Origin: Isoetes taiwanensis
Lineage: Eukaryota; Streptophyta; Lycopodiopsida; Isoetales; Isoetaceae
Assembly (NCBI GenBank): GCA_021234155.1
Contig: JAJEKV010000080.1
Span: forward strand, 1,038,182 to 1,102,181
DNA: 64,000 bases
Direction: 5' to 3'
In this document: piece by piece, positions 30,960 to 64,000 of the stretch
Position numbering within the stretch: position 1 is the stretch's first letter
Layout of the letters: each line of letters begins with the position of its first letter
Notes under the pieces: model-generated
The model's input: the letters and a program-made list of their open reading frames with translations, nothing else
Told to the model about the DNA's origin: nothing
The model's database searches: none
Program-made: the position numbers and the translations under genes

Positions 30960-32285
<1,326 letters not shown>

Positions 32286-32696
32286 TTTCTTCACATACTT
32301 TTAATGCTCTCAAGGTTTTTTAGCTAGTTCAAAAACCAAGCTCAACTTTGTAAGTGTGAGATGGTTTTTTCACATGGTTATTTACTAAATTTCTAATCTT
32401 AGGTTTAACATTTTTTAGGTGATTGGAAAAATGGCTTTTTATGTGCCCGTTCTTGATGATGGAGATGTTTTTTATCTGGATGTTTTGGAGCATTAGCTTT
32501 CAACTACATCATATAAATTTTAGATTAGCTTAGGCATGGCTTAGACGAAACCTGGTTTGATAGGCGATTTCTCTCTTATCTGGTGTCAGATTTCGGCATG
32601 CTTGGGCTTGTTGGAAAGCTTGCTCCGAGCTCTTTCCGCAGGTGTATTAGAATCTTGTTGCCTCAAACAGCTGATTTCCGGACTGGTTCGGATGTC

Positions 32697-33845
32697 ATGG
32701 CTCCTGCCAGACAGGCTGATGGGGGATCGATTGAGCCTCATGGCTTGGGGCTGAAGCCAAGGGAGATGGCGAGGAGAAAGAATCCTCCAGTAAAGGGGAA
32801 GGGCGCGGGTCTCGGCATGCATGAAGAGGCATGGGCTGTAGGAAGTGGCATGCAATTGGTGGCAAAGATGAGGGAGCTCTTGGAATCCCCTTCGGTTGAG
32901 AGGTATGTGGATTACTCTTCCTCTCAGTATAATTTTGAGACCCCAGTAGATTGTGTTTTGGAGACTCCGGTCTTGATTCCATCAAGCATGCCCCCTTTGG
33001 AAACTGGACCTGTGATGCCCTCTTCCCCTGTGCTTGGGAAGGGATCACTTGCTGGTGATGCGCCCTCTTCTAGGGTGCGGCATTGTGTGCATGTAGATGA
33101 TGTGCCTTCTGGAGTGCCCCTGGATACCTCTCCTTCTGGAGTGCCCCTGGATACCTCTCAGGGTGCTAGGGCGGCAGCCCCAACTCCTGTGCGCCTGACC
33201 TGGCGGAGCAATGACACTGTTGCTCGCATCACTCAGCCGGGGTTTTCAGATTGGATCAAGCGCAAGGCTCCGGAGTGTAGGACTGCCCGTGTTCAAGAGG
33301 CTCTGAAATTTGTGGAGGATCATCAATCTGTTGATCTGCAGGCAGCTCTTCCAGGGACTCCATGGATAGATATTGATCATACCAGACATGTTCAGACCAT
33401 TGAGAATCTAGTTTCATTTGCGGTATTGGGCTACTTCACAGGTTACATATTGGACACGAGGAGGTTTAGCTCTTGGCTTCTTTGGACATCCGAGGCGCAT
33501 TGGTTTGCCTGTGTCGGGCCTCTCAAATTCCTACCAAATAATTTCTTCATAATCATGTTTGAGGCTGAGTCTTCCGTACGGCAGTTGGTTAGTCGAGGGG
33601 TGGATATTTTGGGGGAATTATATGTGTTGTATCAGTATTATACTCCGGCAATGTCCACCAGTTCTTTGACAGCGGTTAAAATCCCGTATTGGTTCCAGAT
33701 AAAGGATCTTCCTCCTGATCTGATGGTGCCTGATTTCTTGGTTTCTATGGCTAATGGCCTGGGTGTATATTTGGCTCATTCTATTGTGCAGGTCCCCAAG
33801 ATCTGTGTTGCTCTGCCTGCTTTGCAACATGTGCCTAGTGCGTAG
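32697..33845 (+). CDS. L1 ORF1 protein, DUF4283-like nucleic-acid-binding domain
   Basis: The first good in-frame ATG (MAPARQADGGS) gives 382 residues. The N-terminal half is Pro/Ser-rich with a small duplication (DVPSGVPLDTSPSGVPLDTS). The C-terminal half (from about residue 215) is the RRM-like domain typical of plant L1 ORF1: ENLVSFAVLGYFTG, FIIMFEAESSVRQLVSRGV, VKIPYWFQIKDLPPDLMV. The frame stops at 33845, but related sequence continues in the next register (RLKLLNGSEIQRMFP), so the 3' part is frameshifted. Its role would be binding LINE RNA. Confidence 0.75.
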   Translation: MAPARQADGGSIEPHGLGLKPREMARRKNPPVKGKGAGLGMHEEAWAVGSGMQLVAKMRELLESPSVERYVDYSSSQYNFETPVDCVLETPVLIPSSMPPLETGPVMPSSPVLGKGSLAGDAPSSRVRHCVHVDDVPSGVPLDTSPSGVPLDTSQGARAAAPTPVRLTWRSNDTVARITQPGFSDWIKRKAPECRTARVQEALKFVEDHQSVDLQAALPGTPWIDIDHTRHVQTIENLVSFAVLGYFTGYILDTRRFSSWLLWTSEAHWFACVGPLKFLPNNFFIIMFEAESSVRQLVSRGVDILGELYVLYQYYTPAMSTSSLTAVKIPYWFQIKDLPPDLMVPDFLVSMANGLGVYLAHSIVQVPKICVALPALQHVPSA

Positions 33846-34534
33846 TGGTCCCTGGCATTTTCTCTTCCGATTGAAGCTTTTGAATGGCTCTGAGATCCAG
33901 CGGATGTTTCCATCTATTGTGCTACCATCTGACCATGTGGTTGATCCTGCTAGTGCTTGTGATGTGGTAGGGGTTGCACCATCTGATCCTGTTGTTGATC
34001 CTACTGGTGCTTGTGATGTGGCAGGGGCCCGGGATTCCTCTGTTCCTGAGGCAACAGGCAGAGGACTCCGTGGTGCAGTGAGTGGAGTTGGACGAGGTGG
34101 TGTGGTTGGGAGAGGTGGTGTGGGGCCGAGGCCGGGGCAAAGCTTGTCTTTGGCCGCCCATTGGATGGCGGGGCTAGGGGCGTGGTGGCTCGGGGGAGGG
34201 CCTGGGATGATGATTTGGTTGTGGCTAGATCCGAGGACGAGGCTGTGGGAGGGGCTAGTGGTCCCGCCGGGATGTCCCAAAGCGGTATGTCTTGCCGAGC
34301 ATGAGGTGGCTGGAGCAGCCCGGCTGGAGGTAGAGACTAGTGTGGCCCATGACTCTATGGAGGTGCCTGGGGGACCTCCAAAACGTGTTGGAAGTGGAGT
34401 GTCACGTAGAGCGGCTGTGGGTCACTTTGCTGTGATTAATCCTCTGGCTCTAGATGATGACTCTGTGGAGTTGGCTGATGGCCCGTGGGTAGGCATGTGG
34501 GGCTTGACACTTCTCCTCCGTGATGAATAGGTCG

Positions 34535-37500
34535 ATCTACTTGCTTGGAATGCGCGGGGTGCGGTCCTCTAGTAGTAAGAGGGCCCGTTTTCTTTGGCAC
34601 TTTAGCAGCTTGCGGCCCTCGATATTGTTTGCATTCAGGAGCATAAGTGTCACAGGGTGATACGTCCAGGCTCATGAATATGGTTGGTAGGCAGTTTGTC
34701 TCTATTGCTTCTTCTTCTGGGGTACTCTTATTGCTTGGAGGATGGATGTGCAGGTTACATACTCTGCAGCAGGCAGGTTTGGTCGGTGGGCAATAATTAA
34801 GTGGTTGGAGGGAGGGCAAGAGTGGGGGATTGTTAATGTTTATGCCCCTAATCAGCCTTCTCGGGGGGTGCTTTATGGGCCACAATGCGGAATAAGTTCT
34901 GCAGCCCTTGGTGGGTTGCGTGTCGCTTTGGTTGTTTGTTAGGGGACTTCAATATGGTAGAGCGAGTAGAGGATCGCTCTGGTTCTGGAACCCAGGCCAT
35001 GCATGGGTTTGAGAGGGACCAATGGTCTCGTCGTTTGTTGCAGGATTTGGCCTTGGTTGAGGTCCCTGTGGACTTGTCTTTCACCTATTGTAATAGGCAG
35101 ATTGGTGCGGGCCGGGCGTATGCTAGGCATGACTGGTGCTATGCTTCCCCATGCGCACTGGATGGTGTGCCCTCTTTGCGCCGGAGTAACATTATGTCTA
35201 CCTCCATTTCTGATCATTACCCTCAGGTTTTGTCCAGTCAGGGTGCGGTTGCCTCTCGGCCCTCTAGGACGGTGTTCCGTTTGAACACCCGGCTTCTGGC
35301 TGATGCGGATTTCTTGGCCCAGTGCCAAGAGTTGTGGCTTGATACCTTTTCATCTCTGAAGGGTATATCTAGTATGGTGACTGCGTTGGCCAGGGTGAAG
35401 CGTTTTGCCAAGGTCTTTGGTAGACAGCGTGTGCAGCAGGAGCGGCAGGAGTTGCATGGCCTCTATCCAGGAGTTGGAGAAGATTCGGGCGCAGCCTTCT
35501 GATGGCATTAGGGAGAATGCAGTGTTGCAGCGTATTGTTGCTCTGGAGCAGGTTAAAGTGCAGAAGGCGCGTGTGAAAGCGGCCCTTACCTGGTTGAAGG
35601 AGGGGGACACAAGTTCGTCGGTGTTCTTCAGAGCAGCTAGGGCAAATGCGCGATATGCAAAGATCTATGGCGCCCCTTGCTTTGCCTGATGGCCGGACTT
35701 TGGAGGATCCCGCTGATTTGCAGCGGTATGTGCATGCTCATTTCTCAGGGTTTTTCGCACAACGCACTCTTCCCTATGAGCAGGAGATGTAGGAGCTTGT
35801 TTTGGGGGCTGTTAAGCCATCTATTCTGCCTCACCAGTGTGAGATCTTGGAGCAAGAGCTCTCCAGAGAGGATTTAGCGGAGGCATGTATGTGCATGGCC
35901 AAGGATAAATGTCCTGGACTGGATGGCATCCCTGTGGAGCTCTTTCAGACTTATTGGGAGTGGGCTGGTGAGTCTCATGTACTGTGTGTATCTTGAGTTG
36001 TCAGCAGCTACTCAAATGGATAGGATCTTGAATACCGCATGCATTTCCTTGATTCCTAAGGTTAAGCATCCTTCTACCATTAATGATTGGAGGCCTATCT
36101 CCTTGTTGTCCTCTGTGTACAAGATTATTGCGAAAGCCCTGACAGAGAAGTTGAAGCCGGTGTTGACTTCTTCCACTAGTAAGGTGCAGTCTGGGTTTGT
36201 TCCTGGGAGGAACATTTTGACTAATGTTGCCGCAGCTTATGAGGGCCTTTATTGGGCCAAGAGAACAGGTCAAGGCATTGCCTATCTTAAGCTTGACTTT
36301 GCCAAAGCTTACGATAGCATCCGTTGGGAGTTCTTATCTGCCATGATGTTAGCGTTGGGCTGTGGTCCATGCTTTACAGAGACAGTCATGAAGCTGCATA
36401 GGTCAAGACAAAGCTACTGGTGGTGTGCTGTGGTGAACCCTCCCCGCCGCTTTCTCCTTAGGCGAGGGTGCGTCGGGGGTGCCCTTTGGCTCGCTTTTGT
36501 TTACGACAGGCGAGGGCAATCGCCCTCGCTTGTTTTTGCTTTGCGGGAGGAGGGTGTGGTGGATGGGCTTCGGATGCAGGATGGTAGCCAGCAGATTATT
36601 AACCAGTTCGCCGATGACACTTTCCTCTTCTTGGTGGCAGAAGAGAGGAATCTGCGGAATGTGAAGGGTTTGCTGGATACTTTCTCCTTGGCCTCGGGCA
36701 TTCTTCTGAATTGGGGTAAATGCTCCGCATTATGGGCCTAGCTGACTCCGCCTCCCCCTTGTTTGGCTCTATTCCCTTGGAAGGTGCTTCCAGGTAATGT
36801 GTATACTAAGCTGTTGGGTATTCCCTTTGGAGGGGATGTTTCCATGGGGAGGGTATGGGATGAGATTTTGCAGGGGTTCCAGAAACACCTCAATTGATGG
36901 AAGGGTAGCAAGTTGTCCATGACAGGTATGATCACTATTGCCAAGTCAGTACTTTGTAGCACTCATGTGTATACAGCATCTGCGATGTTAGCTCCTGAGG
37001 GTAAGATACAGGCTTTGGATAAGATTGTTCGAAATTTTGTGTGGGGCGGGGATGATGAAGGGGCGGTTGTTAAAGTGGCTTGGTGGAAGTGTCTCCGCCC
37101 CCGGGAGGATGGGGGCTTGGCCATTCTGGATTTGGCGCTGCATAGTAAGGTGTTGGTCTCCAAGTTTGTTTGGAGCACTCTGCAGGATGGAGCATCTTCT
37201 CTTGGTGCGGCGCTATTGTTGCAGTCTCTCTGCCATTGTGTGGCATTTGGGAGCCGTCTGTGCATGTGGAGTTGCCCTGGGCACTGTTGTATGGTCTCCG
37301 GCCGTTCCCACATGCATCCCCGTTTCTCAGGGGGTGTTGCGGGCTTGGGATCATGTGCGTGTGCTCTTCCAGCTAAATTACGCCTCAGTTTATCACCACT
37401 CTTCTCCTTTCTTGTGGGTTCCTCTACCCCTGCAAGACTTGCCCTTGGTCGCCATCAGGCATGCTCAAGGCGCAGGCCCGCTGGAGGCGAAGGCTCACCT

Positions 37501-37550
37501 TTGGAGGATTGGTATTGGGGTGGTCAGCTAGCTTCGTGGGAGTTCTTTTG
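34535..37550 (+). pseudogene. L1 ORF2 (endonuclease-reverse transcriptase), frameshifted
   Basis: In order across several registers: LLAWNARGA and IVCIQEHK (start of the APE-type endonuclease); WGIVNVYAPNQPSRG; GDFNMVERVEDRSG; SISDHYP. Then come the RT motifs LIPKVKHPSTINDWRPISLL, AKALTEKLKPVL, GFVPGRNIL, LKLDFAKAYDSIRWEFL and FADDTFLFLV. The GLRQGDPLSP-type motif is altered in the region of 36.45 kb, where an insertion or frameshift scrambles the sequence. Further downstream motifs (KIVRNFVWGGDDE, WWKCLRPREDGGL) mark the post-RT region. Multiple frameshifts make it inactive. Confidence 0.85.
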
Positions 37551-38458
37551 AGCTCGCTTTTGCCTGAGGGGCAGTGACCGGGCTATCTGGGAACAAGTGG
37601 CGGGAGTATTCCGCTACACATACCTATAGTCCCACGTGATGATGTGGTGGTGCAGTTTGGAAGGTTCATCCGGATGTTGTGTCTTCTTGTTTTGTGTAGT
37701 CTTGTTACCGGGTGCCGGGCTATTCAGACACTCTCCCCCTTTCTCGGCAAGTGGTCTCTCGCAGCTTCCTGTTCTCGATGGCGCCGGTTTGGGCGTGGAC
37801 ATGGAGCTCACTTCCCCACCGGGTTAGGGTGCTTCGTGGCGGTGGTGCACTGGCCAGATTAGGGTGAATGCCCTTGTGAGTCGGGCTTTAGGCGGGGTGT
37901 GAGCCCTCTCTACCCTTTGTTGTGGCCTTCATCGTTGAGACTTGTGGAGCATTGTGCGGTTTTATGCCCTCACTTGCGTGTGCGCCTGATTGGGCCGGGC
38001 TCGCTTTGTAAGATTGACTAGCCGCCAGCTTTCTTCATGTGTATCCCGGTGCTTGGTCGCTTTGTGGCGACAAGCCTTGCATCCGTCGCGGGCTTGGTTG
38101 GTGTGGCTGATTTGGAAGCCGCGGCGGTTGGGATCTTTCGTGGGGATTCAAAGAAATGCAAAATTTCTCGATTCCTCGACTCGGTACAAGCTATTTCAAA
38201 GCTTTATGGTGTTCCCGGATTAGTAGAGCCGGAAGTTTGCCATTTGGCTGACTTCTTGGGTGTTGTAGATGGTGATGGTCGGTTTTGTACAAAGAAAGAG
38301 AGTTGCGCTTTTTCCTGTGAGTTTATTGTGGAGTGTTGAGGTATCGCTGTCTCTTTAGGGCAGTTCTCCTTCCTCCTCACTTGCTTTGTAACATTACCAT
38401 TCTTTTAATATATTGATGACACAGTTTTCCCCACAAAAAAAAAAAAAAAAAAAAACCG

Positions 38459-40619: not shown

Positions 40620-40970
40620 CAGGAAAGTTCACGTTTGTAAGCCACTCTGGAGCAAGCACAGTTGATTATTTGTTGGCTAAAGATGCACGTATGATTAAGG
40701 ACTTCTGGATTGGTGAAAAGCTTCCAGAATCTGATCATAAACCCCTATTTATAATGCTTAAAACATGTCATGAAACTGATTTATAGCAGCAGCCCTTTCA
40801 TCCTAAGATTAAAGTGAATTACACCCTACATGAAGCATATAAAAAGTGCATTGAAGATTTATTGGAACAAGCCACATGGTCAGGACAATTTGTAGCAGAT
40901 GCAAACCATTTTACGGGGTTAATATTGGATGCTGCAAAGCAAACATTTGGTGTGACCAAAAGGCGCATTC

Positions 40971-40995
40971 AAGCATAATTTCATTAATTGTGGAC
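40971..40995 (+). repeat. Left terminal inverted repeat
   Basis: Starts AAGCATAATTTCATTA and ends GTGGAC; inverted partner at 51471-51495 with mismatches at two positions. The ATTC target duplication precedes it. Confidence 0.9.
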
Positions 40996-41239
40996 TTTGC
41001 CTCCATATGACTCCCAAATGGACCCGATTTTTTAGAATATAAGGGTTTTATTTAGTAGAATGATGCAAAATTTCGAAATGCGTACAGGTAGGTGAGATGG
41101 CAGGCCTTGTATCTATTAAGCAAAAAAAGTGCCAACCGAGTTTGTGTCTCGCCCAAGCGCCTTCTGTAGACGTGGTCTCGCCACAGCAGCCGGCATTCGC
41201 AAATCTGCATAGTATAGATTCATAGTCGTGCCAGTCAGA

Positions 41240-41572
41240 ATGATCCGAACCAGGCGCAACGATGGATTCACAATGAGCGAAATGCAGTGCCATATCGCCG
41301 AGCCAATATTAGCTCATGCGAATCAGCTTCAGGTTGAGGTGCAGAACGAGATAAACCAAAATGGCACAGAAGAAATGAGACACCAACTCAGGAAGCTCCT
41401 TCGTCGTGGAGAGTTGATGAAGGATGGCGATGAGCCGGATCACCTCAGCAGGGTAGAGCTAGGAAGGCTGCTTGATTTCCTTGAAACGCCATATTTACAG
41501 GGCAGAAGCTCTGAAGAGGTTGCTGAAAATGGAGGATGTTTGGCTGCACAACAGTTTCCGGTCGTTATTTAA
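41240..41572 (+). CDS. Small charged protein or exon near the left end of the element
   Basis: An ATG at 41240 opens 110 codons with clear codon bias: a helical, charged sequence (ILAHANQLQVEVQNEINQNG; MRHQLRKLLRRGELMKDGDE; LSRVELGRLLDFLETPYLQ). It lies 245 bases inside the left terminal repeat, convergent with the leftward ParB/methylase-like gene. No family is recognised. It could be a separate accessory protein or a terminal exon spliced from elsewhere in the element. Confidence 0.45.
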   Translation: MIRTRRNDGFTMSEMQCHIAEPILAHANQLQVEVQNEINQNGTEEMRHQLRKLLRRGELMKDGDEPDHLSRVELGRLLDFLETPYLQGRSSEEVAENGGCLAAQQFPVVI

Positions 41573-42065
41573 GAAGCTTTACAAGAAGGAAAAGAGGCAG
41601 CGTGTGGCTTTGGTAACGAAACTCATCCTGACAATGATATAATAATGTTGTAAGGATGTAATAAGCATAGTCAATATTATATAATGTAACGTACCTGAGT
41701 AATTCCTGAGGGTGTGCTCTTTGATCTCCACTGTTTCTGCACCTCCACTTCACTTCATGTTTGATGACGTTTACTCTGCTAGTAAATTGGGCGCCCGCCC
41801 AATTTGTGGCCGAGGATAGCGAAGGTCTCAAGTTAACAGCAACAAGATTGGTTGTGAAATAAATTAAATTAAAGGTTTTAGTTTCTACGGGTAAGCAAAT
41901 TGGGCGCCCGCCCAATTTGGTTAGCAAAGTAAACTAGAGAATTATAAGACAAGGAAATGAGTGCAACGTTATAATTTCTGAAAAAAGAAGTAATTACAAT
42001 TGTTCATAACATATTTCACATATTTTGAAATCATAAATTGCTCATTCGTCTGGAGGCACCTCTTC

Positions 42066-45000
42066 TCAATGATCCTTGCTGGGTTCTTCATGCTGGGGCG
42101 GAGGTTGTTGTGCTGCCTCTTTGATCTCTTCCATTTTTTGCCTAAAATCTTCGGCCCCCAGTTCCTCATTCTCCTCATCTGCACCCTGATTGTCTTCGGT
42201 GTTCGCCGCCTCTTCCTCTACATCTTGACTATTTAATGTGTTGGGGACCACATCCTCTCCATCCAGATTGTCCCCTTCCTGTGTTTCCATGACAATGACA
42301 GACTCAGGATCCCTAGCAACCTCTTCCTCAAACTTTGAGGTCGCCTCAATAATGTCCTGAGTATTCACCAGTGCGGTCCCTGCCAGTGCATTGATGTTGT
42401 CTTTTCTTCTCCTAAATAGTTCCAAATCCTGAGAGCCTAGGGCCGCTGCCTTTTTGAGCTCTATTTGAATCGAGCTCTTGTCATGTCTCAGAATGGATTG
42501 CACTTCGTTTATGGTTGTAGAGGAGAACGGACAAGATGTCTCAGGAGCAGGAAGCTGAGGCTGAGGAACATTTTTGGAAGTAGAGGCCTTCTTCTTTCCC
42601 TCCTTGATCTTTGGTAGTGCCTGAGCTCTTGATTTTTTCTCGTCTAACATGACATCGAGTTGCTCGAATATCTGTACAAGCTTAATTTCCAGCTTCTCGT
42701 CTGTCTCAAAAGACAATGTTTTATAGCCCTCGCACACTGCATCTCGGCTAAAAGCACCACCGGAAAAGAAGTCGAGAACAGTGCAATCTTCCAACATCAA
42801 CTTCTGTACTAGATAGGTGCACGTCTTACTTTCCAACTGATTATGCACGAGTACTCCTCCCCCACCTGCTGCACCCTTGTCGCACCAAGGATGATACAGT
42901 CAATAAGCTGCAGGGAAAACAAATGTTAGAAACATTGATGGTCAACAACAAAATTGGGCGGGCGCCCAATTTAAAATGCATACCTGCTGCACACTCATGA
43001 TCAGGCAAATTCTTTTCGATGTCCTGTTTTTCTCGTAAATGCTTGGGAAACTTAGCATATTGCTTTGGATGGTTGGAATTGCCGAAGCAAATATTTATTT
43101 CCTGTACAGATGGCGGAGCCGCTGCGTCTCTGGCAACATACATTAGCAGGACAAGACATTGCAGCTCTCGAACTCTAGAGGTAGAAGCAGTTCTGGCCGG
43201 GGGGTCCTGGTAGGAACCAACCCAAACACGGCTGCCACCGTCTATTATCTTCATGGCGGATAGGCACTCATTGAGGCGGTCCGGGGTAATAAATATAGCT
43301 ATCCAAGAAAGTCGCTGGTCCGCCATCGTCTTTGAGCTGGTCAAGGAATTTTTCATAATCTTCCTTTGGCCATTTCTTTGTATATCCGTCGCATCCAATG
43401 AAGCGGCAGAAGTATTTACCACGCCCACGCACAAACCTCATGGACTAACGTGGAAACACTTGAAAGGTTTGCCACCCTCCTCAACCGCCCAAGAAGATAT
43501 TCGTCTACTTTACTTTGTCAGAGGGACTCCGAAAGCTTTCCTTCTCCATCTCTTTAAGTCCCTACGCCCATCCACCGATACTCTTGGCGAACATAAGCAT
43601 CAGATTCTCTGTGAATATTGGATGAGCTTGCCTCAAGGCAGTCATGTCTTGAAAAGGGAGTTTCTTCACTTCCTTCATGTATCTGACAAGGGCCCGCTCC
43701 ATTGTTCCAATCTTCTTCAGCTCTAAGGCTCTGACTTTCATGGTACGTCTCCCAATATAATCCTTGCTTCCCTTCAGGAAAGTGGTGCCATCCTTGATCT
43801 CCTTCAAAGACCTTTGCAGATCTAGAGGATGCATGGACTTTAATGGGCGACAGGAATTGTTGGTGAAAAGTCTAAGCCTGTCTTTCACTTCAATTCTTTC
43901 TCCCTTCTTGTCCTTCAACCGGTCTTCGTAGAATAACTGGGCAACTTCGGTGCACAATGACCACGATTCGTTATCAAGATATACAAAGTAGTCGTAGTCA
44001 CGCATAGTTGACTTCTTAATCGCTTGCAACGCCACGCTGCCTTTCCAACTCGCATGACACGTAAGGCATTAGATACGGCCCATACACATCATCGTAATTT
44101 GCTTGCACTAGCTGTTCCAAATTGGGCGCCCGCCCAATTTCAGATTGTTGACACTCTTTTGGCGCCCACCCTTAATTTCCTGGGTCCCAAATTGGGCGGG
44201 CGCCAATTTGCACTTCGCTCAGTGGAAATTGGGCACCAATTTCCAAAAAGAGTGTCAATAATCAAATTGGGCGGCTTTTGGAACTGGTGGATAGCACGAA
44301 CTGTCAGAAATAATGGTGGTTAATGCACTCACAGAATAAGCTCCACCGACGGAGTGCCCGCGATTGCCCTTCTTAGGCTTCCGTAGAATGCCCACTTGGT
44401 TTTCAAGCTGCTGAATTTCTTCAAGAATACTTCGTGTATAGTCTTCTTTGTTATGTCATTATTCTCCGGGCCGATTACGAACGCATTTTCGATTCTTTGG
44501 AGATTTCCTGCCAGGACTTGGCATTTCCTTGTGGCATAGAAAAAGAATATCAGTTCAGCCAAGTGCTTCCTTTCAGGAGGCCATGCCAAAGCTTGTGTGA
44601 CAAGCGGTTGAGCAACCGTGTAGTCGTATGGTTGCCATTTACAATCCAAAATTCTGCATTTTGCGAGGTCCTCCGCCTTCTTCCACTTAATTGCTGCTCC
44701 GCACATGCGTGGATCGAACGGCACGACATCAGCATCGAGGGTGCATCCGATGGCTGATAAACGATTAAGTAGAGAGTGTCCAAATGCTCTGGACTTATGA
44801 CCCTACAAGTCATATTTGCCGGGCTTTATGCATCTTGAACACATCGATTTCAATTTGAAGCCCACCCCCGAGGGTAGATTCTCTCCACAGGCTTGATGCT
44901 TGCTATGGCGCTGTGACAACTCATATGCGCTCTCACGTGGACGCCGCCCGGGCCGGATGGAGTGAACTTCACGATCTGCACGGCTAGTCTCCCGTTCTTC

Positions 45001-45964
45001 CGGCTAGACAAGGACTCCCTCTCCGAACTATTTGGGCTCTGTGGTGAGATGTGCCGCTTGCGCCTCTTGGACGGACCACCTAAATCTTTTCCTCTGCGCT
45101 TAGAGGGTTCCTCTTGATTAATTGGTCCTCTTACGCACTCACCTCGGCGACCTTTGCTATTCTCGACAATCCAATCAATACAAGTTTAGGGGCAGCTTTA
45201 CGGGAATAGTCAGAAAGGCGTGTCCTCGCCTTCTTTATTCTTTGTCTCTCGGTCTCCATGGCCGCTGGTGCCTGCGCTTGTGATGTCTCACCCTTCTTGT
45301 ATCTAGACTTAAGCCACTTAGTATCGTATACTTTAGGTTGGTTCTTGCCCTGATACTCCGTGAACAGTGCTTTCGATCTGTTCTGTTTGTGTTCTAATAT
45401 CCACTGCCTGACAGCGTAGTAGCCATCCAAGATATCAGTTCTTGATTTGATGCCCGAGCGCTCTAAACTTTCATATGAGTCTAGCGCCCATCCTTTATGA
45501 GCGCAAGAATGTGGGCTTTCCTTTATACTTATGCTTCATCATACATGGCTCGTAATTTCAGAAAGTGGAACTTTATAACGGACGAAAGCCCGATCTACGG
45601 TGTCTTCAACATCGATGAGGAAGTCATCGCTGTTCTCAGGCGAGACCTCCATGTCGATGACGATACCCGCCGAGTTCATTTTCCCTGTCCCTCTCTTGCC
45701 AAAGAAAAGCAAAAGATCCTTGAGGTGGTTTGTCCGGGACCCGTGATGAATATTCCCTATCTCTATGCACCGTACACAATCCTCAAAGAACCGGGCCATA
45801 ACTTCATGGGGCACTACCCGGATGTCGCAAAAACGCTTCTTTCTTCTTCTTCGTTTTGCATCCTCTCTTGCAATAGCCTCTCAGAAATTTGGGTCGGGAC
45901 CGGAACCCCCGAAAGTACCGCTTTGTTCAAGGCCATAATAATTCCCCGCAGAATCGGAAAGTAG
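42066..45964 (-). pseudogene. ParB-like/DNA-methylase-like multi-exon gene (copy 2), frameshifted
   Basis: Exon-like blocks, 5' to 3': about 45960-45539 (ARFFEDCVRCIEIGNIHHG); 45430-45131 (VRQWILEHKQNRSKALF); 44813-44333, containing FWIVNGNHTTTR and, after a register change, ALAWPPERKHLAELIFFF, ending at donor TCT/GTGAGT; 44036-about 43565 (starts after GGCAG, phases match); about 43430-42984 (donor CAG/GTATGC); and 42907-42066 (after CCCTGCAG), with LEDCTVLDFFSGGAFSRDAV and CEGYKTLSFETDEK, then a Lys-rich and an acidic tail (EEEAANTEDNQGADEENEE). FW(V/I)V(D/N)xxH is ParB-like; DFFSGGxFSRDA...FETD is like motif I of N6-adenine methylases. Register changes and a TGA at 42902 suggest decay. Enzyme activity is not established; the DPPY motif was not confidently located. 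Confidence 0.6.
44110..44300. repeat. 190-bp compound hairpin in an intron
   Basis: GTTCCAAATTGGGCG... and GATT(G)TTGACACTCTTTT at 44114-44160 recur inverted at 44244-44295 (AAAAAGAGTGTCAATAATC ... TTTTGGAAC). Three 22-bp palindromes or their remnants are nested inside. The whole lies in the intron between donor 44332 and acceptor 44037 of the leftward gene. It looks like the palindromes grew into a larger fold-back. Confidence 0.8.
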
Positions 45965-45974
45965 TGTTAGTACT

Positions 45975-46285
45975 TGGGAGACTAGGAGCTGAAGAGACGG
46001 TTGTATCATAGAGGCCAATTATACCAATTTGGCCGGATCTCTACGCACACCAAATTGGGCGCCACGCCCAATTTACTGCCACTCAACTCATGGTGAGACT
46101 TGGGGCTGAGGAGACGGTTGTATCATAGAGGCCAAATTGGGCGCCCGCCCAATTTGGCCGGATCTTGACAAGACACCAAATTGGCGCCTACCAATTATCG
46201 CCACCAACTCATGGTGAGACTTGGGGCTGAGGGGAGGAGCATCATAGAGGCCAAATTGGGCGCCCGCCCAATTTACTACGGCCCA
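45975..46285. repeat. Three tandem units of about 120 bp between the divergent genes
   Basis: The unit (CTCATGGTGAGACTTGGGGC, GAGACGGTTGTATCATAGAG, palindrome, GGCCGGATCT, second palindrome) repeats three times with decay, each carrying one or two 22-bp palindromes. It sits at the 5' side of the leftward gene, so it may act as a shared control region, but that is inference. Confidence 0.8.
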
Positions 46286-48368
46286 AGTCTACCATCCAAG
46301 GAAGTCGTGCTGTCCTTGAGAGTAAATTGGGCGTCCGCCCAATTTGGTGTGAGGGAGAAGTTCATTCTACTGCCCTTGAGCATAGTTAAGATACCCCTCG
46401 TGATGGAAGGGTACCGTACTGGAGAAAAAGGCCAATGTTGTGCAAAATGAAAGCCCCTCAGGGAAGCAATTCGGTGCCCTATGAAGTTCTCGCATTACGT
46501 ATGCATTTGTGGGGACCAAAGGAGGCATCTAGAAGATGTTAATTTCTCACCACACCCAATTTCCTCTAAGCAAAAGTGGATACTCAATCAGCAAAGCTCA
46601 AGTTTATATTTACACAAAGAGTCCAGCCTTACCTTTGCCTCCTGTGGTGGGGCGAGATGCCATCAACTGCTGAGATTCCTTGGTGTACAGGGGTTCCCAG
46701 GCGATAGGACAATGAACAGAGGAAGGCGCCAACAGGATGGCGACAAGCGGCCGAGAAACACAAGGCGCCAAGTCTTTGGATCCGGGCCGACAAAATGGTT
46801 CGGGGAGTATAGTCTTGGCGACAGGATAGGGATGAGAATGACTTTCCTGGGTAAAAAATATGAAGGCGACAGTGTTAAGCGGAGCAGAAAGCGCCAAGGA
46901 AGCACAGAATTTTCTAAAACTGCAGTCGAGGAGAATGAGGGGAATTTAAAGGGTTATGGACCTTTCATGAGCCGAAGACAAGTGTCGTGCATGTGAGAGT
47001 TTGGACTTTTCAAATAAAAATGGATCGTTGATGGGTTCGAGCGTGAGGAATTAATTGTGGACCTTATTAATAATTGCACGGAGATTTTAAATTTCAAATC
47101 CGTCATTTAAAGGCCGCCCAAATTTAATTCGAGTCATGCACGTGTCGCACGTGTTTTAGGCGGGAAGTTGTGTTTAAAAGTTCCCGGCCGGACATATTAC
47201 TTCGAAATTAGGGGGGGCATTTAACTTTCAAAATAGGGGGGAAATTACATTCAAATTTTGGGGGGAATTTGTGTTTAAATGTAAATGCGCTTCAGACCTA
47301 TTGTTTTTCTAGCACTGCTCCGTTTGGCTACTATCTTTTCTTCAAGACGCAAACATCTTCAGCGCTTCATACTCATGGCCACGAAATCTCCAAAGGTTTG
47401 TGCTGCTCCTCAATTTTATTCATCGTAGCTCGATGTGTAAGTGCTGCAAATGTAATCTGAAGGGATGTAATCATTCACGCCTGTTCATTCGCACCTCTTC
47501 AAGCACGCCTGTTCATGCACACCTCTTCATTCACGCCTGTTCATGCACACCTCTTCATTCATGCCTGTTCATTCATACCTCTTCATTCACGCCTTTTCGA
47601 TGGCGCCTGTTGAGTTCCTAAGGCGGGTGATATCCTGCCTGTTGACATTTACATAAACTCTAATTTTCGATGCAGTCTGCCCTTTTCCTGAAATTGGTGT
47701 GCAGGAATTGTGTGCCTGTTGTTTTCTCCATGCTCGTTTGTTTGCCCCCAAGAATTACCCTGATAGGTCCACCCTTGTTTGTAGTCGCCCCTTCCAAAGG
47801 CTCGATTGTATTTGTTTTGGGTAGCTCATTCTTCATCGTCGCCTCGCTCGGTTTCATTTACGTTAAAGGGACAAATTGGGCGGTCGCCCAGATTGTCCCT
47901 TTGTGTAGATGACCAGATAGGTGAAATTGGCCGGGTGGGCAAACTGTATCTCAAGTTGTGCCTATTGTGTCTATTCTCAAGTTGTCACACGAATGTGTTT
48001 TCTCTACGGCAGCTAAATTGGGCGGGCGCCGAGTCTCTACCTACTTCACAGCATCTTCTATATAACCATTTAACCAAATTGGGCGGGCGCCCAATTTGTA
48101 AGCGGTCATGGTCTGTTCAGAGCGAGAACCTTTCTTCGTACCCATTGTGAGACTGACTGCATCAATACTAACCTTATATAAGCGCCTCAGTCGGTTCAAA
48201 TTGGGCGGCCGCCCAATTTGCAACAAGGGGAATCTAAAGACCTCATATGTAAAGGCACCCGCCAATTTCATTGTGCGTAAACCATTGAATGGCCATCCCC
48301 CATGTCCTTTGCATTGCTTTCTCGCCTTCCTTACTCGATTTTAACACTACTGAAAATCCTTGTGCAGT
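46286..48368. other. Central region of the element, low coding potential
   Basis: Holds palindrome copies at 46324, 47873, 48076 and 48197. Frames at 46481-46996 are open but unrecognised. GC-poor stretches with GGGGGG(A/C)ATTT repeats lie at 47.20-47.27 kb. It probably contains the 5' end, leader and first introns of the rightward gene. Confidence 0.45.
47472..47602. repeat. 28-bp minisatellite, about 4.5 units
   Basis: The unit approximates CATTCACGCCTGTTCATGCA plus CACCTCTT, repeated with point changes. It lies inside the element upstream of the rightward gene. Confidence 0.85.
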
Positions 48369-51300
48369 TGTGTATCTCTACCTTAATGAACATCTAGTAG
48401 CAAAGGGAGTTGTGGGGCAAATGACACAATGCCACTTCAAGGAGATATCGAATGGAGTAGTGAGCGTAGGTGTGGAGGAAGTGTTCGAAGGCCACCATAC
48501 CCTTCCTTGGTCAACTCCAGATGCAAACACAATAGTGGAAGCCAGGGGCTCATTCGTTCTCCGGAGAAGCCAAGATGCCCGTGAGTCGTCTTCTAATGAC
48601 GCCCCCAAAGAAAAAGACAAATGGACGAGAGGTGGGAAAGGAGACACAACCGCCACAAGATATACCTTGCTTGAAAAGGATTGTGAGATATGGCACTCCC
48701 GCGACTCCATTATCGCCGAAAAGGGATTCATATCTTTCACCGCCCCGGCGATGCGCTTTGTGACCGCCGGGTTTCAAGTTTGTGGGAGTATCTCAGAATC
48801 GAAGGTTTCCCTCCCTTTTCTGAAGTGAACATCCGCTGCCGGGGGTTGCTTGCAGTGCCGGGCCGGGATGCTCGTGAGATGGAGCAATGACCTCGTCCGT
48901 TGATGGAGTAAAGGTCTCGAGATATTGACCGCAAAGACCGCAACAGAAGCGATATTGTGTCCAGCCGGGAGCTCGTGAGCATCGGCACCCAAATTATGAG
49001 AAACGACATTACACTTTTCATTCCCCGACAGCCCAGGAAGGTTGTAAGGCCACCAAAGCTTGCTCGCCTCACCACTCGAGAATGCTATCCTCGCCATTTA
49101 GGAGGACCTTGTGTTGCAAGAATAGGTGTTGCGTCAAGTTCTCTACGAATCAAGTTGTTAACATGCGAAAAGGAATTCCTTTGCCATGAAATCAAGTGAT
49201 AGGGTTACTTTTGTTTATGACATGTTCGCCAATAACATGAAAGGTCGAAGAGTGGGACGACCGGGTGCCGCAGGGGAATCTCGCTTTGGCGAAAAGGGCG
49301 GGTACCTTGGTCTCGGATCTCAAAGTCGGCGATCCGAAATGGAAGGCCCAATTTCTTGAGGGTGCACGCAAGGCCTAACATGGTAACCGTGGCACCTTGA
49401 AGCCTCGCCCTCGACGCTGGCATGTGAGGCCGTTTTCCATGTTTGTGAGGGAGAACGGTGAATCTTTGCCCCACCGCAGCAGGAGAAACGAGGAGGGGAT
49501 AAGAGAGAATGTCGAAGTTGCCCGCAATGTTTACGGTCCAAAGATTCTAGAAGAGGTTAATGCAGAGGTTGTGGCATTGACCGGCAAGAAGGTATCACCG
49601 GCAACGTTTTCATAGAACGCGGAGGCGGAGCTTTCCCGACGTTAGTATCGCGAAAAGAAAATTGCATTCTCCAAATGCGATACATGTGAGGTGATCCGCA
49701 CGGTTATCAAGACCAAAGATGAAGGAGAGAGGAGGATGTTGCATGATGAAAGAAGAGCGCATAGACCGGAGCAGCCTCGTGGTCGCATTACGCATCGGGT
49801 CGTGGAAATTATACTCCCACGTATCCCGCCAATATCTTTGTATTATTCACGACAAAATGGATCAAGCCAAAACAATGATTCCAAAATTGCAACAACTGTG
49901 AAGTCTCTCCGAGACTTGACAAGCTCAAAACGACATTGACCGGTGCATTGACTTATGGTCATGGGAATGGATCCTATGGAAACTTTGCCTGGACTTATGG
50001 CCGATGACTCTAACTTCCATGTAGGTTCTTTGAATAGCATCTTGAAGAGATTAGAGATGGGGCACGAAGTATGCGAGGAGGCCACCGCCGATGCTGAATC
50101 ATCTGCCCCAAAATGGGTCTCCTCATTGCAGACACGGCGGGCCTTGGAGTCAAAGTTGTCACTATCCAATACCAAAGATACCGCTTAATTTGCCACAGGT
50201 GAGAGGGACCATCATTGAAGCCTCTCGCCCAAGATACTTTATTCCCCTTTCAAAATGGACAACGATCCGGACGGAGAGAACAAGAATAGGTACGCCTTCT
50301 CCTATCTTTCTTACCTAGTATATCTTGGTGTGTTTGAAGAGATTGAGCTAGGGTTCATGATGCCCGGTCACACACATGATGATATCGATGCCTTGTTTGG
50401 TAACTTCTCTACATCTTTAAAGAAGGTCGAGGTGCTCACAATGCCGAACTACTATATGAATTCCACAAATGCAACTTGAATACACCCGTGTCCTATATGT
50501 TGTTGACAAAGTTCGATTGGAAGGGTTTTATAGAAGGCTACATACCGGATGGGGATGATAGATTGACAGGTCATACAACCCCTCTAACTTTCAGATTCGC
50601 TATGAATGGTGATTGGTCAGTCATATATTACAAAACTCGACCCACTTACTTGGATTGGTTGCCTGCTGGTGGAATAAAGATGTGGAAAGAAAAAAGAGGA
50701 CGGAAGCCCATGATGCCGCTTGGATATCCTAAGTCGCTTCCTCCCAAGAAATCGGTGAAGGACCTTGGCCTGCTGCATAAACAAGATCCACAAGCATATA
50801 TTGCATTGGGTTGCTTGTTCAACTAGTAACAAGGGTGCTCCGAAACGCCAAGTACTTTCGGCGCGATTCCGCCCACGATTGAATATTGGATGAAACTCTT
50901 TGCAAGAACTCGTGAACATCAGCAAATGACGGAAGGCACTTATAATGACTTTCGGCCACGTACTAGGCAAGCACAAGCTCCACCTCATGTACCTGTAGTG
51001 GTGGAGCCAATTGCTACTATCACTCCTCCTTATGTCGGCCCCTGGAAGGATAAACCTGTACCGGAATTCAACCCATACAAAGATTTGAAGAAAGGTATGT
51101 TTATTATGGCACGCCCTGATGATGTGTTGTGCCCAACTTGGGTGGGCCTAGCTACTGAGGACCCACAAATGGATGATAAGAAGGAGAACTTTGAGACTAT
51201 TCTGGTGACTTGGTGGGAGCCAATCCCAGTGAGGAACCAAGTCTACCCAGCTAATTATGCCAATTGCTGGAAGAAGAGATGGAGGCCAACGACTGCAAGT

Positions 51301-51417
51301 GACCGCATAGAAGTGGAGACTATCGACTACGCTTGGGAGCACCTAATACTATTAAGATACCCGTGCATGCTGCTGAGGCATATGCAGCACTCGCAGGGGA
51401 TGTCAACTAGTGTATGA
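48369..51417 (+). pseudogene. DUF7869-type transposase-like gene, decayed
   Basis: After acceptor TTGTGCAG at 48368: VVYLYLNEHLVAKGVV, VSVGVEEVFEGHHTLPW and EARGSFVL, then charged coiled-coil-like segments (48.7-49.6 kb) in shifting registers. The core (49.7-50.48 kb) reads YLCIIHDKMDQAKTMIPKL (49845 on), KRHLTGALTYGHG, GSLNSILKRLEMG, MDNDPDGENKNRYAF (50255 on), GVFEEIELGFMMPGHTHDDI and DALFGNFS (50366 on). D-M-D-Q-A-K, DN..ENKNR and GHTH(E/D)DID are, as I recall them, hallmarks of DUF7869 proteins, consistent with an RNase-H-like DDE fold (inference). Downstream frames 50476-50826 and 50890-51417 (PDDVLCPTWVGLATED, YANCWKKRWRP) form the C-terminal part. Register changes at 49.9 and 50.2 kb mean this copy is probably dead. 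Confidence 0.65.
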
Positions 51418-51470
51418 AAATGAGTCATTCATCCAAGTGTACTAAAAAATGGTCCATAAATTCAGGTATT

Positions 51471-51495
51471 GTCCATAATTAATGAAATTGTGCTT
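51471..51495 (-). repeat. Right terminal inverted repeat
   Basis: Inverse partner of 40971-40995; begins GTCCATAATTAATGAAATT and is followed by the ATTC target duplication. A second GTCCATAA lies at 51452, subterminal. Confidence 0.9.
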
Positions 51496-53758
51496 ATTCA
51501 TGGGAGACCATGCAATGCATGGTGGGATAAGGAATGCAAGATAGCTAGAAACAGATTGCCAAAAAGCTGCATATGTAAACCAAAATGGTACAAGCAACTC
51601 TTGAGAAAAAAGAAGCGCGATTACTTCAAGAAAAAGCAAAGAGAATTGACAGAGCACCTCAAACATACACCAAAAGCCTTCTGGGATATGTTTAAGGGCA
51701 GATTTGAGCGCTCCAGCTTAAGGGAAGATGCCTTGATGCAACTAGTAAAAGATCTCTATGAAAAGAGTGGTCAGAATAGCATGCCAAGAATGGCCTCCAG
51801 TGCATGCATTGCTTTTAAAGAACATGAGGTGAAGGAGATATTAAGTGACATGGCTAATAATAAAGCATGTGATTTGGATGGCGTGTGTGTGGAGCTCCTA
51901 AAATGGGGCGGACAGAGCACTTTGTCCACACTTACAGGCTTGATAAATGAAGGGTTCAAAAGTGGTTTGCCTGATAGTTGGAGGACCAATATGGTCCATC
52001 CAATTCACAAAGCAGGTGACAAGAAGGATGTAGCAAATTACAGAACAATTCTAATTGGAAATACATTTGCTAAAATTATGGGCAGTCTCCTGGACTATAA
52101 ACTTAAATCTTGGGCAGAAGAACATAGCAAGCGCTCTCCATACCAGGCTGGTTAGAAGAACATAGCAAGCGCTCTCCATACTAGGCTGGTTTTAGGACGG
52201 GGCATAATACCTTAGACCATGCCCTTGCACTTCGAGTATTAGTGGAGAAGGCTAGAAATCCAAATGCAGCATTGTTTGTGGCATTTATTGACTTTGCAAA
52301 AGCATTTGACTCTGTTCCAAGAGATAAACTGAGCGAGAGAATGATACAGATTGGGTTCTCTGAAGAAATTAGAGAAGCCATAGCTCAGTTATATTCAGAG
52401 GTATTGATTAAAGTTTCTTTGAATTTAAGCACATTAGTGAGAAGCACGGTGGGGGTACGTCAGGGGTGCCCGTTATCTCCAACTCTATTTGGCATATTCA
52501 TTGATGAACTAGAAGAATGGCTGAAAAATCAGTCTCTATCAGGCACACAAATAGGTACATACCTTATCCAGCTCTTATTATATGCAGATGATGTGGTGTT
52601 ATTAGCCAACAAGAAGCAAATATTGCAGAAGCACTTGGCTAGAATTATTTTGCATGGCAAAGGGGATGAAAGTGAATGTGGCTAAATCCAAAATCATGAT
52701 ATTTGGAACCAAGAAGAGACCCAATTTCTTTTACCAGGGACTTACACTTGAAATAGTGGACTGCTACAAATATTTAGGCATTGATTTTGCTTCAAAATAC
52801 AATTGGAAGGAATGTGTAAAAAGAAGAGTCATGGGAGGTAAATCAGCTTTGTATAGTATGCTTACGAGGTGTCATAAGGCATCTCTAATAGATTGGGAGC
52901 TGAAAAAAATGCTTTTCAAAACATTAGTACAAACAGTATTGCTATATGGAACTCCGGTATGGGGTCCAGGATGCTCAGCAAGGCTATGGAGCCAAATAGA
53001 AGCTGTGCAGAAAATGTTCTTGCGGGAGGAGCTGGGAATCAAAGCTCAAATGCCATATGCAATCATGCTTGCAGAAGCTGGGATGTTCCCCTTAGAGCTT
53101 GAAGCTCTATACCAAGCTGTAAATTTTGTAAATAGGCTTAGAGAACAGAGTCCAGCTCGAATCTCCGATCAAGCTATGGCTAATGCTGAGCAAGGGTGGC
53201 TAAGAGATTTTTGGAATTGGGCTAATAAATGGGGGATGTCAGAAGCCAATTGGCCTAGTGACAAAAAGGAGGCAAGAGCCCTATTGAAAAGACTTGCAAT
53301 AGATTACTTATGGGTTGCCCCAGGTAGTAGAATGGTACACTATAGAAGAGAAGTCAACAGCATTATAGATTACAAAAGCACTTATGTTCAGATATTTCAA
53401 AAGCATATAAACAAATTATAGCCAGGTACAGAACCAGTTCTCATCGTCTGGGAATTGAAGTAGGCAGGTGGTTCAAAGTTCCCATGGGAGACAGGAAGTG
53501 TGAGATATGTGGTTCGGGAGATGTAGAGGATGAGGCACATACATTTCTACATTGCTCAGCTTATGAGCATATTAGAGATGAGTCCAGCATTGTTGAATTT
53601 GGAACCATATTTGTTAGGAGAGTATATAAGCAAGGTGGATACACACCGATCATTTTTGATAAAGTTGTAAATATTAGTGCTCCATGGCCTCTCAAGGTCC
53701 TAAGTGAGCATTAGATAGATAGATAGATAAATAAATAAATAAATAAATAAATAAATAG

Positions 53759-59977: not shown

Positions 59978-61497
59978 GGGAGACCTTCCTTATCCGGCCC
60001 CCCTCCACGTATACATAAAAAAAAGAGCACGTCAGCAGCATTTTTATAGAGAGCGGACGTTTTGTAGCACCGGACTGTAACAGAAACAGATAACAGAGAA
60101 GAGAGAACCCAGATAACAGACAAGAGAGAATCGCTGACAATTTTGTATTTCCAATCTAAAAAATATTCATGCCACAGCATTTGCCATATCACAAGACGGG
60201 ATCTTGTTCATTTTCAGGAGCATTCAACATCTTCTTATTGTACATAGCGACATGGGAGCAAAAAACATTAAAAGCCTGATCTTTCTGATGAACAAAGTAC
60301 TTCCTCCACATATACTCCATAAAATACGACTCATACAATGCTTTGCATGTGCCATATCGAGGAAGCGATTTCTTTACTGCACCCCATGTAGATTCTATCC
60401 TATTTATATGCACACCAGTCTCAGGATCCTTGAAATGTAGACTATGGTTCACAGTGCAATGTTGAAACTGCAATTGCTCCAACCATTCTGAATCATAACC
60501 TCTCCAACAATCACTGTAAATAACAGTTCCAGGTGCTACATACTTGTAAATGATAGAAACTAATGTATCAGCTGTCCGATCTTCAACTGGCACCATGAAC
60601 ATCTTGTTGGATCCTCGCTCAATGCCTCCAAACACCCACTGACCCTCAACTCTTCTACCCCTATTATACTTCCGCTTACCAAATTTGCTCTCATCTATTT
60701 CTACGATCTTTCCAGGACCACCAATCACCTCACTGTTATTCTGAATTGCAATGGCACAAATATCACAGCAATAGTTATACCAATTAACCATTGCCTGATA
60801 TGTACAGATGCCACACTCGCTCATTGCGACGTCTTGTGGCATCTTAACACTCCAGCAGTACATCAATCTCAACATTTGTGGGAATGTTAATTTGCTTCCA
60901 GAAAACCAGGTACCTCTACGAATAGAACATGTAAAACTGCAATGCTTACCTCTACATTTCCACTTGATTCCATCTCTTGACCCCTTCAAATTTCCACGCA
61001 ATTTCATTGTCTTGTTGCATTTCTCACACTCTCTCCTTCTTGGCAAGAAGCCTATTTCTACACAGAGAGCAATAGCAGCTTCAGAACCGCTAGTCTTCTC
61101 TACTAATTGAGCAAGACTCGTGACATTCATGCTTCCATTCTGGAACTCCATTGAATTCTGGAACTTTTGAAGAGCACAGAGAACAGAAAACAGTAGGATG
61201 GATTTCTTGAATGATGTTTCTCCTTTCATGTTTCTTGAATTTATGGCTTCCGATTATGGGAGTGGTTCAACGAACCAGTTAATGGGCTAATGGGCAGTGG
61301 TAGCAGTTAGACGGATCCTAGCAGGTAGTCGGATCTGGCAGGTAGTCCGTTTGTGCTTAATTACGGCAACCGAAAAATAGCGTAGTTCGTGTTTTGTTCG
61401 TCCGTGTAAAATTCGGCAGCAACAGCGAAATAAGGAGCGGCTTACGTGGACAAAAATGGTCTACGTGGAGGGGGGGGCCGAATAAGGAACGCTACCC
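59978..61497 (-). mobile_element. Merlin-family DNA transposon, apparently complete
   Basis: Inverted terminal repeats of about 36 bp: left GGGAGACCTTCCTTATCCGG then C6 and TCCACGTA; right inverse GGGTAGCGTTCCTTATTCGG then C8 and TCCACGTA. A perfect 8-bp target duplication TCGATCTG flanks it at 59970-59977 and 61498-61505. Length is 1520 bp with one intact transposase gene. Merlin elements are known to be related to bacterial IS1016/IS1595 and to make 8-9-bp duplications, so structure and coding sequence agree. Perfect duplication and an intact frame indicate a young insertion. Confidence 0.93.
60189..61229 (-). CDS. Merlin (IS1016/IS1595-like) DDE transposase
   Basis: An intact frame of 346 residues starts at the ATG at 61229. 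An N-terminal zinc-ribbon-like module has C68, C71, C92 and C97 (CEKC...CRGKHC). The catalytic core has IDESKFGKRKYNRGRR (D179), VFGGIERGSNKMFMVPVEDR, VIYSDCWRGYD (D240) and HINRIESTWGAVKKSL (E279), giving a DD38E spacing typical of the DDE_Tnp_IS1595 family. The HFKDPETGVHIN block before the Glu is a family hallmark. It should cut and paste the element by binding its terminal repeats. No stop or frameshift is present, so the protein could be functional. There is no visible intron. Confidence 0.93.
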   Translation of the reverse strand: MKGETSFKKSILLFSVLCALQKFQNSMEFQNGSMNVTSLAQLVEKTSGSEAAIALCVEIGFLPRRRECEKCNKTMKLRGNLKGSRDGIKWKCRGKHCSFTCSIRRGTWFSGSKLTFPQMLRLMYCWSVKMPQDVAMSECGICTYQAMVNWYNYCCDICAIAIQNNSEVIGGPGKIVEIDESKFGKRKYNRGRRVEGQWVFGGIERGSNKMFMVPVEDRTADTLVSIIYKYVAPGTVIYSDCWRGYDSEWLEQLQFQHCTVNHSLHFKDPETGVHINRIESTWGAVKKSLPRYGTCKALYESYFMEYMWRKYFVHQKDQAFNVFCSHVAMYNKKMLNAPENEQDPVL

Positions 61498-63592: not shown

Positions 63593-64000
63593 ATCACTAA
63601 TATTGAAGAGAGCTAATGCAGGCAAGCCTAGATATAGGTTCCAATTGACGGCAAACATGCTTGGCATTGGCGGCAAACATATTTGGACTTGGCATGAGTG
63701 GGAAACGTGTTTGACCAATATCCTTATGCTAATAAGGTCATGATGTAAACATTAAATATTGATATAAGTTCTACACCATTGTGGGGGGAGATTATTTAAT
63801 TTCATGACGAGCTGGCAAGTTTGTCTTTGAGTTTTTCGTCTTTTGAAATAAGAGACAATGGTTGTTTTTAAGTAGTTGGATTTGAGATGATACCTACAAA
63901 AAACTTATCGGGGCGGCCAAGGCCGCCGCAAACATTTTGTTTGTTCGGATCGACGCAAAATATACTGGGTGAAAAGGATACTCGGTGTGAAAGAAGAAAT
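63593..64000. promoter_or_regulatory. Upstream region of the lectin gene
   Basis: Probable promoter (minus orientation). TTGGCATTGGCGGCAAACAT-like phrases are loosely repeated at 63.64-63.69 kb. No TATA box could be assigned with confidence. Confidence 0.3.

Follow-up and report, generated by a model that had tools for sequence, protein, structure and literature searches.

A possible palindrome-addressed anti-silencing device in a giant, most likely Sola-like transposon family of Isoetes taiwanensis

To our knowledge, few transposon-encoded anti-silencing systems are known, and histone H3 mimics are known from proteins such as influenza NS1 and G9a. VANDAL elements are Mutator-like. In Arabidopsis, the targets of the VANC proteins of VANDAL elements are described, in the available part of the source, as element-specific motifs in introns, intergenic DNA and terminal non-coding DNA, which are amplified in tandem and differ between relatives (PMC5735166). 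The available text on Ectocarpus describes Sola1-1_Ec32, a 21.5-kb Sola-1 element with a 1,104-residue ParB and methyltransferase protein encoded opposite the transposase; similar proteins are cited there from green and red algae, and the authors propose self-modification by this protein (PMC12477816). Sola2 elements of Dictyostelids are reported, again in the available text, to have AT-rich 4-bp target site duplications (TSDs; AWWT) and short inverted ends, and some of them carry Fanzor1 (PMC3627910). The window analysed here is the whole stretch of 64,000 nt from Isoetes taiwanensis (assembly GCA_021234155.1, contig JAJEKV010000080.1, positions 1,038,182–1,102,181 of the forward strand). It contains a 10,525-bp element at 40,971–51,495 with two large divergent genes, of which gene 1 (plus strand) encodes a DUF7869 protein and gene 2 (minus strand) a protein with ParB-like and methyltransferase-like motifs. 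The element is one decayed member of a family of large cut-and-paste DNA transposons, most probably a land-plant branch of Sola(-1)-like giants. Judging from sequence comparison, we put at about one in two the probability that this family joins a giant Sola-like transposon, a DUF7869 transposase and a palindrome-addressed chromatin accessory protein into a VANC-like anti-silencing device built from other parts.

Gene 2 begins MARTKQTARV in copies C1040, C1031, C1018a and C1036m of the element, and with one change in C908. Following the start methionine, ARTKQTAR is identical to residues 1–8 of histone H3. When the genome was searched with residues 1–127 of gene 2, 1,103 first-look candidates emerged, of which 150 were scored. 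Twenty N-termini, picked from the 150 scored matches as aligned from residue 1 of a query that included the peptide, were 49–84 % identical over 127 residues, and MARTKQTAR was exact in 16 of them, with MARTKSTAR (two), MAQTKQTAQ (one) and MARTKQTVC (one) in the others. A set of 25 N-termini, which excludes four copies with a broken start (C1101, C1025, C1018b and that of the window) and two with no match to the N-terminal stretch (C1100a and C1100b), had the exact peptide in 20, K4 and T3 in all 25 and R2 in 24. The residue at the H3 K9 position was never lysine in these 25 sequences, being V (17), M (6), A (1) or L (1). Over codons 2–9, the mean synonymous difference (pS) was 0.66 and the mean non-synonymous difference (pN) 0.04, and the H3-like peptide is therefore under purifying selection in the relatives of gene 2. 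Synonymous change is unaffected by the choice of N-termini that align from residue 1, and all of the 39 matches at 48–54 % identity over 127 residues aligned from residue 1 or 2. The significance of this pattern is that, in a lineage with so many first-look candidates, eight H3-tail residues are maintained under strong selection and Lys9 occurs in none of the 25 starts. Like NS1 and G9a, the gene 2 relatives combine a short H3-tail-like peptide with a non-histone protein; here, the peptide is at the very N-terminus, is exact over eight residues including K4, lacks K9 and belongs to a transposon accessory protein. No transposon-encoded H3 mimic was found in the titles and abstract openings of the literature searched for histone mimicry or H3 peptides together with transposons.

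The element also carries a private 22-bp palindrome, AAATTGGGCG-NN-CGCCCAATTT. With up to three mismatches, 12 sites were detected in the window, all inside the element, and none in 100 shuffles. None of the 12 falls in the gene exon model, and randomly placed sets of five clusters were entirely non-coding in 0.12 % of trials. The positions of these sites relative to the other parts of the element are as follows.

40967–40970: left TSD, ATTC, read from the sequence and repeated at 51496–51499
40971–40995, plus strand: left terminal inverted repeat, AAGCATAATTTCATTAATTGTGGAC, at whose first base 24 of 39 other genomic matches start exactly
41213–41629, plus strand: remnant of a truncated third small gene, cut by a deletion at 41629
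41784–41918: palindrome cluster of two sites, 3' of the minus-strand gene
42066–42917, minus strand: last exon of gene 2, with a methyltransferase motif X / motif I-like stretch, VLDFFSGGAFSRDAVCEGYKTLSFETDEK (about 42693–42779), and an acidic C-terminus
42951–42972: one palindrome, in an intron of gene 2
42986–44105, minus strand: middle exon of gene 2, frame broken, boundaries approximate
44119–44210: two palindromes in the next intron of gene 2, with degenerate half sites to about 44275
44332–45936, minus strand: first coding exon of gene 2, broken, with the ParB-like segment FWIVNGNHTT at about 44600–44960
46134–46345: palindrome cluster of three sites between the divergent genes, plus a degenerate one at 46051
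47873–48219: palindrome cluster of four sites within three mismatches, upstream of gene 1
48368–51417, plus strand: gene 1, DUF7869 transposase-like, interrupted by stops and frameshifts, with an approximate start
50219–50476, plus strand: uninterrupted fragment of the DUF7869 domain, including ...GHTHDDIDALF... (PF25273, E 2e-21)
51471–51495, minus strand: right terminal inverted repeat, present in seven of ten fetched copies
51496–51499: right TSD, ATTC, read from the sequence

The same confinement was observed beyond the window. Seven copies with both ends located held 100 palindrome sites in 92.5 kb compared with 0 in 47.5 kb of flanks, a count that omits 36 sites in three copies without a right end. 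Genome-wide, 5,256 sites were found within one mismatch (backward control, 0), and the four places inspected on contig C8 all lay in family sequence. In a relative, C1070, the equivalent intron has seven palindromes arranged as a 73-bp tandem repeat, with arms unchanged in six. In protein, C1070 is identical at 115 of 140 positions in the ParB part and 82 of 116 in the next exon, at about 74 % identity of exon DNA; in this comparison the palindrome is kept more strictly than exon DNA. Single strands of the palindrome are able to fold. An RNA hairpin is not favoured as the reason for the palindrome: of 136 sites from ten copies, none showed compensating changes across the two arms, and 74 were altered in a single arm.

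An element-specific motif confined to non-coding DNA is a VANC-type trait, and gene 2 is a candidate VANC-like partner because the layout of the palindromes matches the signature of VANC targets. The likeness to VANDAL21 and VANC21 extends to tandem amplification, to motifs that vary from one related element to another and to an accessory protein encoded by the element, while the VANC21 motif is short (YAGTATTAY) compared with the 22-bp palindrome, and ParB, methyltransferase and H3 mimic are all unmentioned in the available part of the VANC description; anti-silencing has been shown there for VANC and is proposed here by analogy (PMC5735166). In the mechanism that we envisage, the ParB-like, methyltransferase-like protein of gene 2 would bind the palindromes as a dimer, coating its own element only, and would perhaps also methylate it. 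The start methionine of a protein is usually removed before alanine. Its removal here would leave the N-terminus A-R-T-K-Q-T-A-R, an H3 tail with Lys4 and without Lys9, which would be offered at the element to readers and writers of H3K4 such as COMPASS/ATX, PHD-finger and LSD1-type proteins. The outcome would be a patch of permissive chromatin unable to take the silencing K9 mark. This detailed version, in which nucleation of the accessory protein on private palindromes is possibly followed by ParB-like spreading and the protein presents a tail with Lys4 but not Lys9, so that an element bearing tails that can never be silenced recruits the host H3K4 machinery, is a tentative proposal. If true, a selfish element would choose its chromatin state through histone mimicry, which is a directly testable question; the ParB/methyltransferase accessory genes of algal giants would gain a function, and plants a sequence-addressed chromatin tool.

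The ParB-like (CRVISPEH..., WIVNGNHTT) and methyltransferase-like (VLDFFSGG...) motifs of gene 2 were identified by eye, and the introns of this gene are putative, being placed at splice-like sites. No match to N6_N4_Mtase (PF01555) over the Pfam cut-off was obtained in the window gene 2 or near copies, and the ParB part of C1070 was also without a Pfam match. PDB sequence searches gave no credible match for the ParB part (0 and 1 in two runs) and 0 matches for the pieced methyltransferase reading; in a PDB profile search with the last exon, M.RsrI (E 1.4) was among six weak matches, none better than E 0.09. A scan of viral contigs with the ParB protein found no relatives. Elsewhere in the genome, a search for N6_N4_Mtase gave 1,442 candidates, and all 150 that were scored exceeded the cut-off (the control was positive for 11 of the 14 known genomes, which befits a prokaryotic family). 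Of these 150 places, 24 were within 15 kb of one of 150 scored DUF7869 places (0.4 expected), and in 22 of the 24 the methyltransferase was divergent from and upstream of DUF7869, as in the window. DUF7869 and the methyltransferase thus form a recurrent module in this genome. The divergent matches had E values of 3e-17 to 1e-12 and were mostly 5–12 kb from DUF7869; most N6_N4_Mtase matches spanned only about profile positions 133–220, which would fit one exon.

Gene 1 matched DUF7869 at E 2.7e-27 in a pieced reading. A genome search for this domain gave 9,902 first-look candidates, with all 150 scored exceeding the cut-off, while it was detected in none of 14 control genomes. Most of the 150 scored places had a match free of stops, and DUF7869 marks a very large, perhaps recent transposon expansion in this genome. 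The longest open frame, of 987 uninterrupted residues, was in relative L033 (L033:949-3909, minus strand). Fourteen of 20 loci could be aligned; most of the six omitted had a frame cut before the first motif, and L051 was omitted with no open frame found. The aspartates of IDGMDQ, QLDN and GHTHDQID were invariant in the 14 sequences, as expected of a DDE/D transposase, and on this ground the DUF7869 protein is a predicted transposase. A PDB profile search with the alignment returned no transposase, with four weak matches of which none was credible. Viral contigs scanned with the DUF7869 piece and with the alignment yielded 0 relatives each. L033 (L033:1-10000) represents another type of DUF7869 element, with an intact frame, a different divergent gene and a 24-bp palindrome of its own, AAAGTGTATTCCGGAATACACTTT or close variants, which occurs six times between the divergent genes (four sites exact or almost exact and two variant). 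No MARTK was found in any frame of its 10 kb; one frame reads MARTHGTL.

An earlier note on this stretch had seen two divergent intron-containing genes, one with DUF7869 and the other with ParB-like and methylase-like motifs. The divergent pair and both sets of motifs are borne out by the results above, with Pfam silent on gene 2 in this copy and near copies; splice-like sites suggest introns in the minus-strand gene only, those of the plus-strand gene not being established. Three features go beyond that note: the palindromes, the H3-like start of gene 2 relatives and, near the left end, a third, truncated open reading frame (ORF). Its statement that no described transposon has this gene pair was too strong, since the pair is not new in kind and is already present in the giant Ectocarpus Sola-1 element, according to the available text (PMC12477816). 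Its view that the element has no obvious known superfamily, the field being narrowed by the 4-bp duplication to superfamilies such as Sola or Academ, stands in part. Sola-like is the most likely placement, with Sola-1 as the closest named superfamily on the basis of the gene pair described for the Ectocarpus giant. Sola (Sola-1) traits found here are the 4-bp TSD (ATTC in the window and a duplication in six of seven copies) and terminal inverted repeats identical at 23 of 25 positions. Academ elements have XPG-type nuclease and helicase domains, and neither was found by Pfam in ten ORFs and five pieced readings. KDZ elements have an 8-bp target duplication and are ruled against by the 4-bp duplication in the window and six of seven copies. 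Sola1-1_Ec32 is alike in being a giant DNA transposon, and its ParB-like and methyltransferase gene opposite the transposase resembles gene 2 in position and motifs; it is unlike in its brown algal host and 21.5-kb length, compared with a plant host and 12.5 kb (longer copy) here, and the available part of its description mentions neither an H3-like start nor palindromes (PMC12477816). Sola2 shares the 4-bp duplications and short inverted ends, but its targets are AWWT whereas no target consensus was found here (PMC3627910). Unlike some Sola2 elements, no Fanzor/OrfB domain was present among the ORFs scanned by Pfam. The occurrence of the pair in a plant genome together with an H3-like start and palindromes was not found described in the titles and abstract openings of the literature searched.

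Several observations weigh against an H3-mimicking, palindrome-addressed accessory protein. The MARTKQTAR start has been lost from the window copy, C1101, C1025 and C1018b, and the start-codon region of the window (45910–45936) reads MALNKAVLS where relatives encode the peptide. Identity to H3 is only eight residues long, and H3 was not among the PDB matches to residues 1–37 of gene 2, which were four weak ones to RecR/RuvA (best E 0.1). In all 20 N-termini examined, a YAG resembling a 3' splice site stands 5 nt before the gene 2 ATG; an intron probably ends there, and an upstream coding exon may bury the peptide. Credible support for ParB or methyltransferase in the window subfamily was obtained from none of Pfam, PHROG and NCBIfam, so that these assignments are of motifs, and the catalytic (D/N)PP(Y/F/W) motif is not evident there, with only DPPA present. 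Gene 2 might, even so, methylate the DNA of its own element (N6-methyladenine or N4-methylcytosine) at or from the palindromes, blocking silencing or controlling access of the transposase, with the H3-like tail serving only to recruit or localise. We consider this unlikely, since in the window subfamily the catalytic motif appears degraded and no methyltransferase is recognised by Pfam, although N6_N4_Mtase adjoins DUF7869 divergently elsewhere in the genome and the available Ectocarpus text suggests such self-modification (PMC12477816). It is very improbable that the MARTKQTAR start is a functionless relic from the capture of an H3 exon in an ancestral element. Plant transposons do capture exons and H3 itself has this peptide after its methionine, but against such a relic stand strong purifying selection where synonymous sites are close to saturation (pN 0.04, pS 0.66) and V, M, A or L in place of K9 in all 25 starts.

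C1070 is the one relative that shows the palindrome conserved, and L033, with its different divergent gene and different palindrome, has none of the window-family palindrome. Because of this other pairing, the protein that binds the palindromes could be the transposase or yet another one. They may be transposase-binding or enhancer sites, comparable to the TnpA-binding sites of CACTA elements, or autoregulatory operators of the divergent promoter, with gene 2 doing something else. The six palindromes between the divergent genes of L033, which belongs to another DUF7869 subfamily, favour such a role, but we regard it as rather doubtful: the palindromes of the window family are scattered through introns, the 3' flank and the intergenic region and are not clustered by the ends, and the same palindrome is common to two gene 2 lineages and absent from L033, which lacks a MARTK start in its 10 kb. 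An undescribed superfamily of its own, distinct from Sola, is a still less probable description of the element. The comparison with Sola covered target duplications, inverted ends and gene content, and DUF7869 was not found by name in the literature searched, which leaves room for it; against it are the 4-bp duplications, a trait given for Sola in the available text (PMC3627910), and the divergent ParB/methyltransferase gene, which fits the available description of Sola1-1_Ec32 (PMC12477816).

The earlier note had also held the element to be a DNA transposon bounded to the base, and the 25-bp inverted ends (23 of 25 positions identical) with ATTC on both sides agree with this. In a window scan with up to three mismatches, the 25-bp end sequence was found only at the two ends of the element, and not in 100 shuffles. 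As that note had also proposed, removal of the element and one ATTC restores a long interspersed nuclear element (LINE) frame: the flanks join as ...TKRRIHGRPCNAWWDKECK... without a stop, and the next open frame downstream is RVT_1. With its two large genes interrupted by stops and frameshifts, the window copy is probably non-autonomous. The ratio of observed to expected CpG was 0.76 in the element compared with 0.50 in the rest of the window, a value surprising for an old plant transposon, which would be expected to be methylated. A 14-bp tandem repeat (TCATTCACGCCTGT / TCATGCACACCTCT) was observed at 47471–47624, between the divergent genes.

Other copies confirm the boundaries. With window positions 40950–42000 as query against its own 1.66-Gb genome, 40 places were scored of 970 candidates, one being the window itself, and at least 39 other places matched the left end at 92–97 % identity. 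The left boundary is shared, with 38 of 39 matches starting within 11 bases of position 40971 (24 exactly on it). One match (G000:C1065:884599-885274) continues for 21 bases into the left flank of the window, perhaps representing the same site in another LINE copy or a duplicated locus. Ten copies were read, and the right end, sought within 20 kb with up to four substitutions, was located in seven (bounded lengths 7.5 to 17.0 kb) and not found in the other three. Perfect 4-bp direct repeats flanked six of the seven bounded copies (CAAG, AATA, AAAA, CATC, ACAA and TTGT), which extends the duplication seen in the window to other insertions; all six differ, with no common target sequence, and the seventh copy, C1031, had no perfect 4-bp duplication. 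Copy C1040 is 12,484 bp long. Its positions 662–2461 (1.8 kb), which include the end of the third small gene, are absent from the window copy, and in C1040 this gene spans 176 open codons from stop to stop, with VELDID as its last residues.

Further features were noted in the rest of the window. Merlin-type elements are unusual in seed plants, and a 354-residue open frame at 60189–61253 (minus strand) has an ISXO2-like (IS1595, Merlin-type) transposase domain (E 4e-17). NOZZLE, a plant family, was matched weakly; together with a legume-lectin gene, this points to a land plant as host. The region at 32001–38000 is GC-rich (0.47–0.54 per 2 kb), holds a second reverse transcriptase frame (35878–36741) and is apparently another LINE-like element. 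A gene with a legume-lectin domain (E 2e-59) lies at 62825–63751 on the minus strand.

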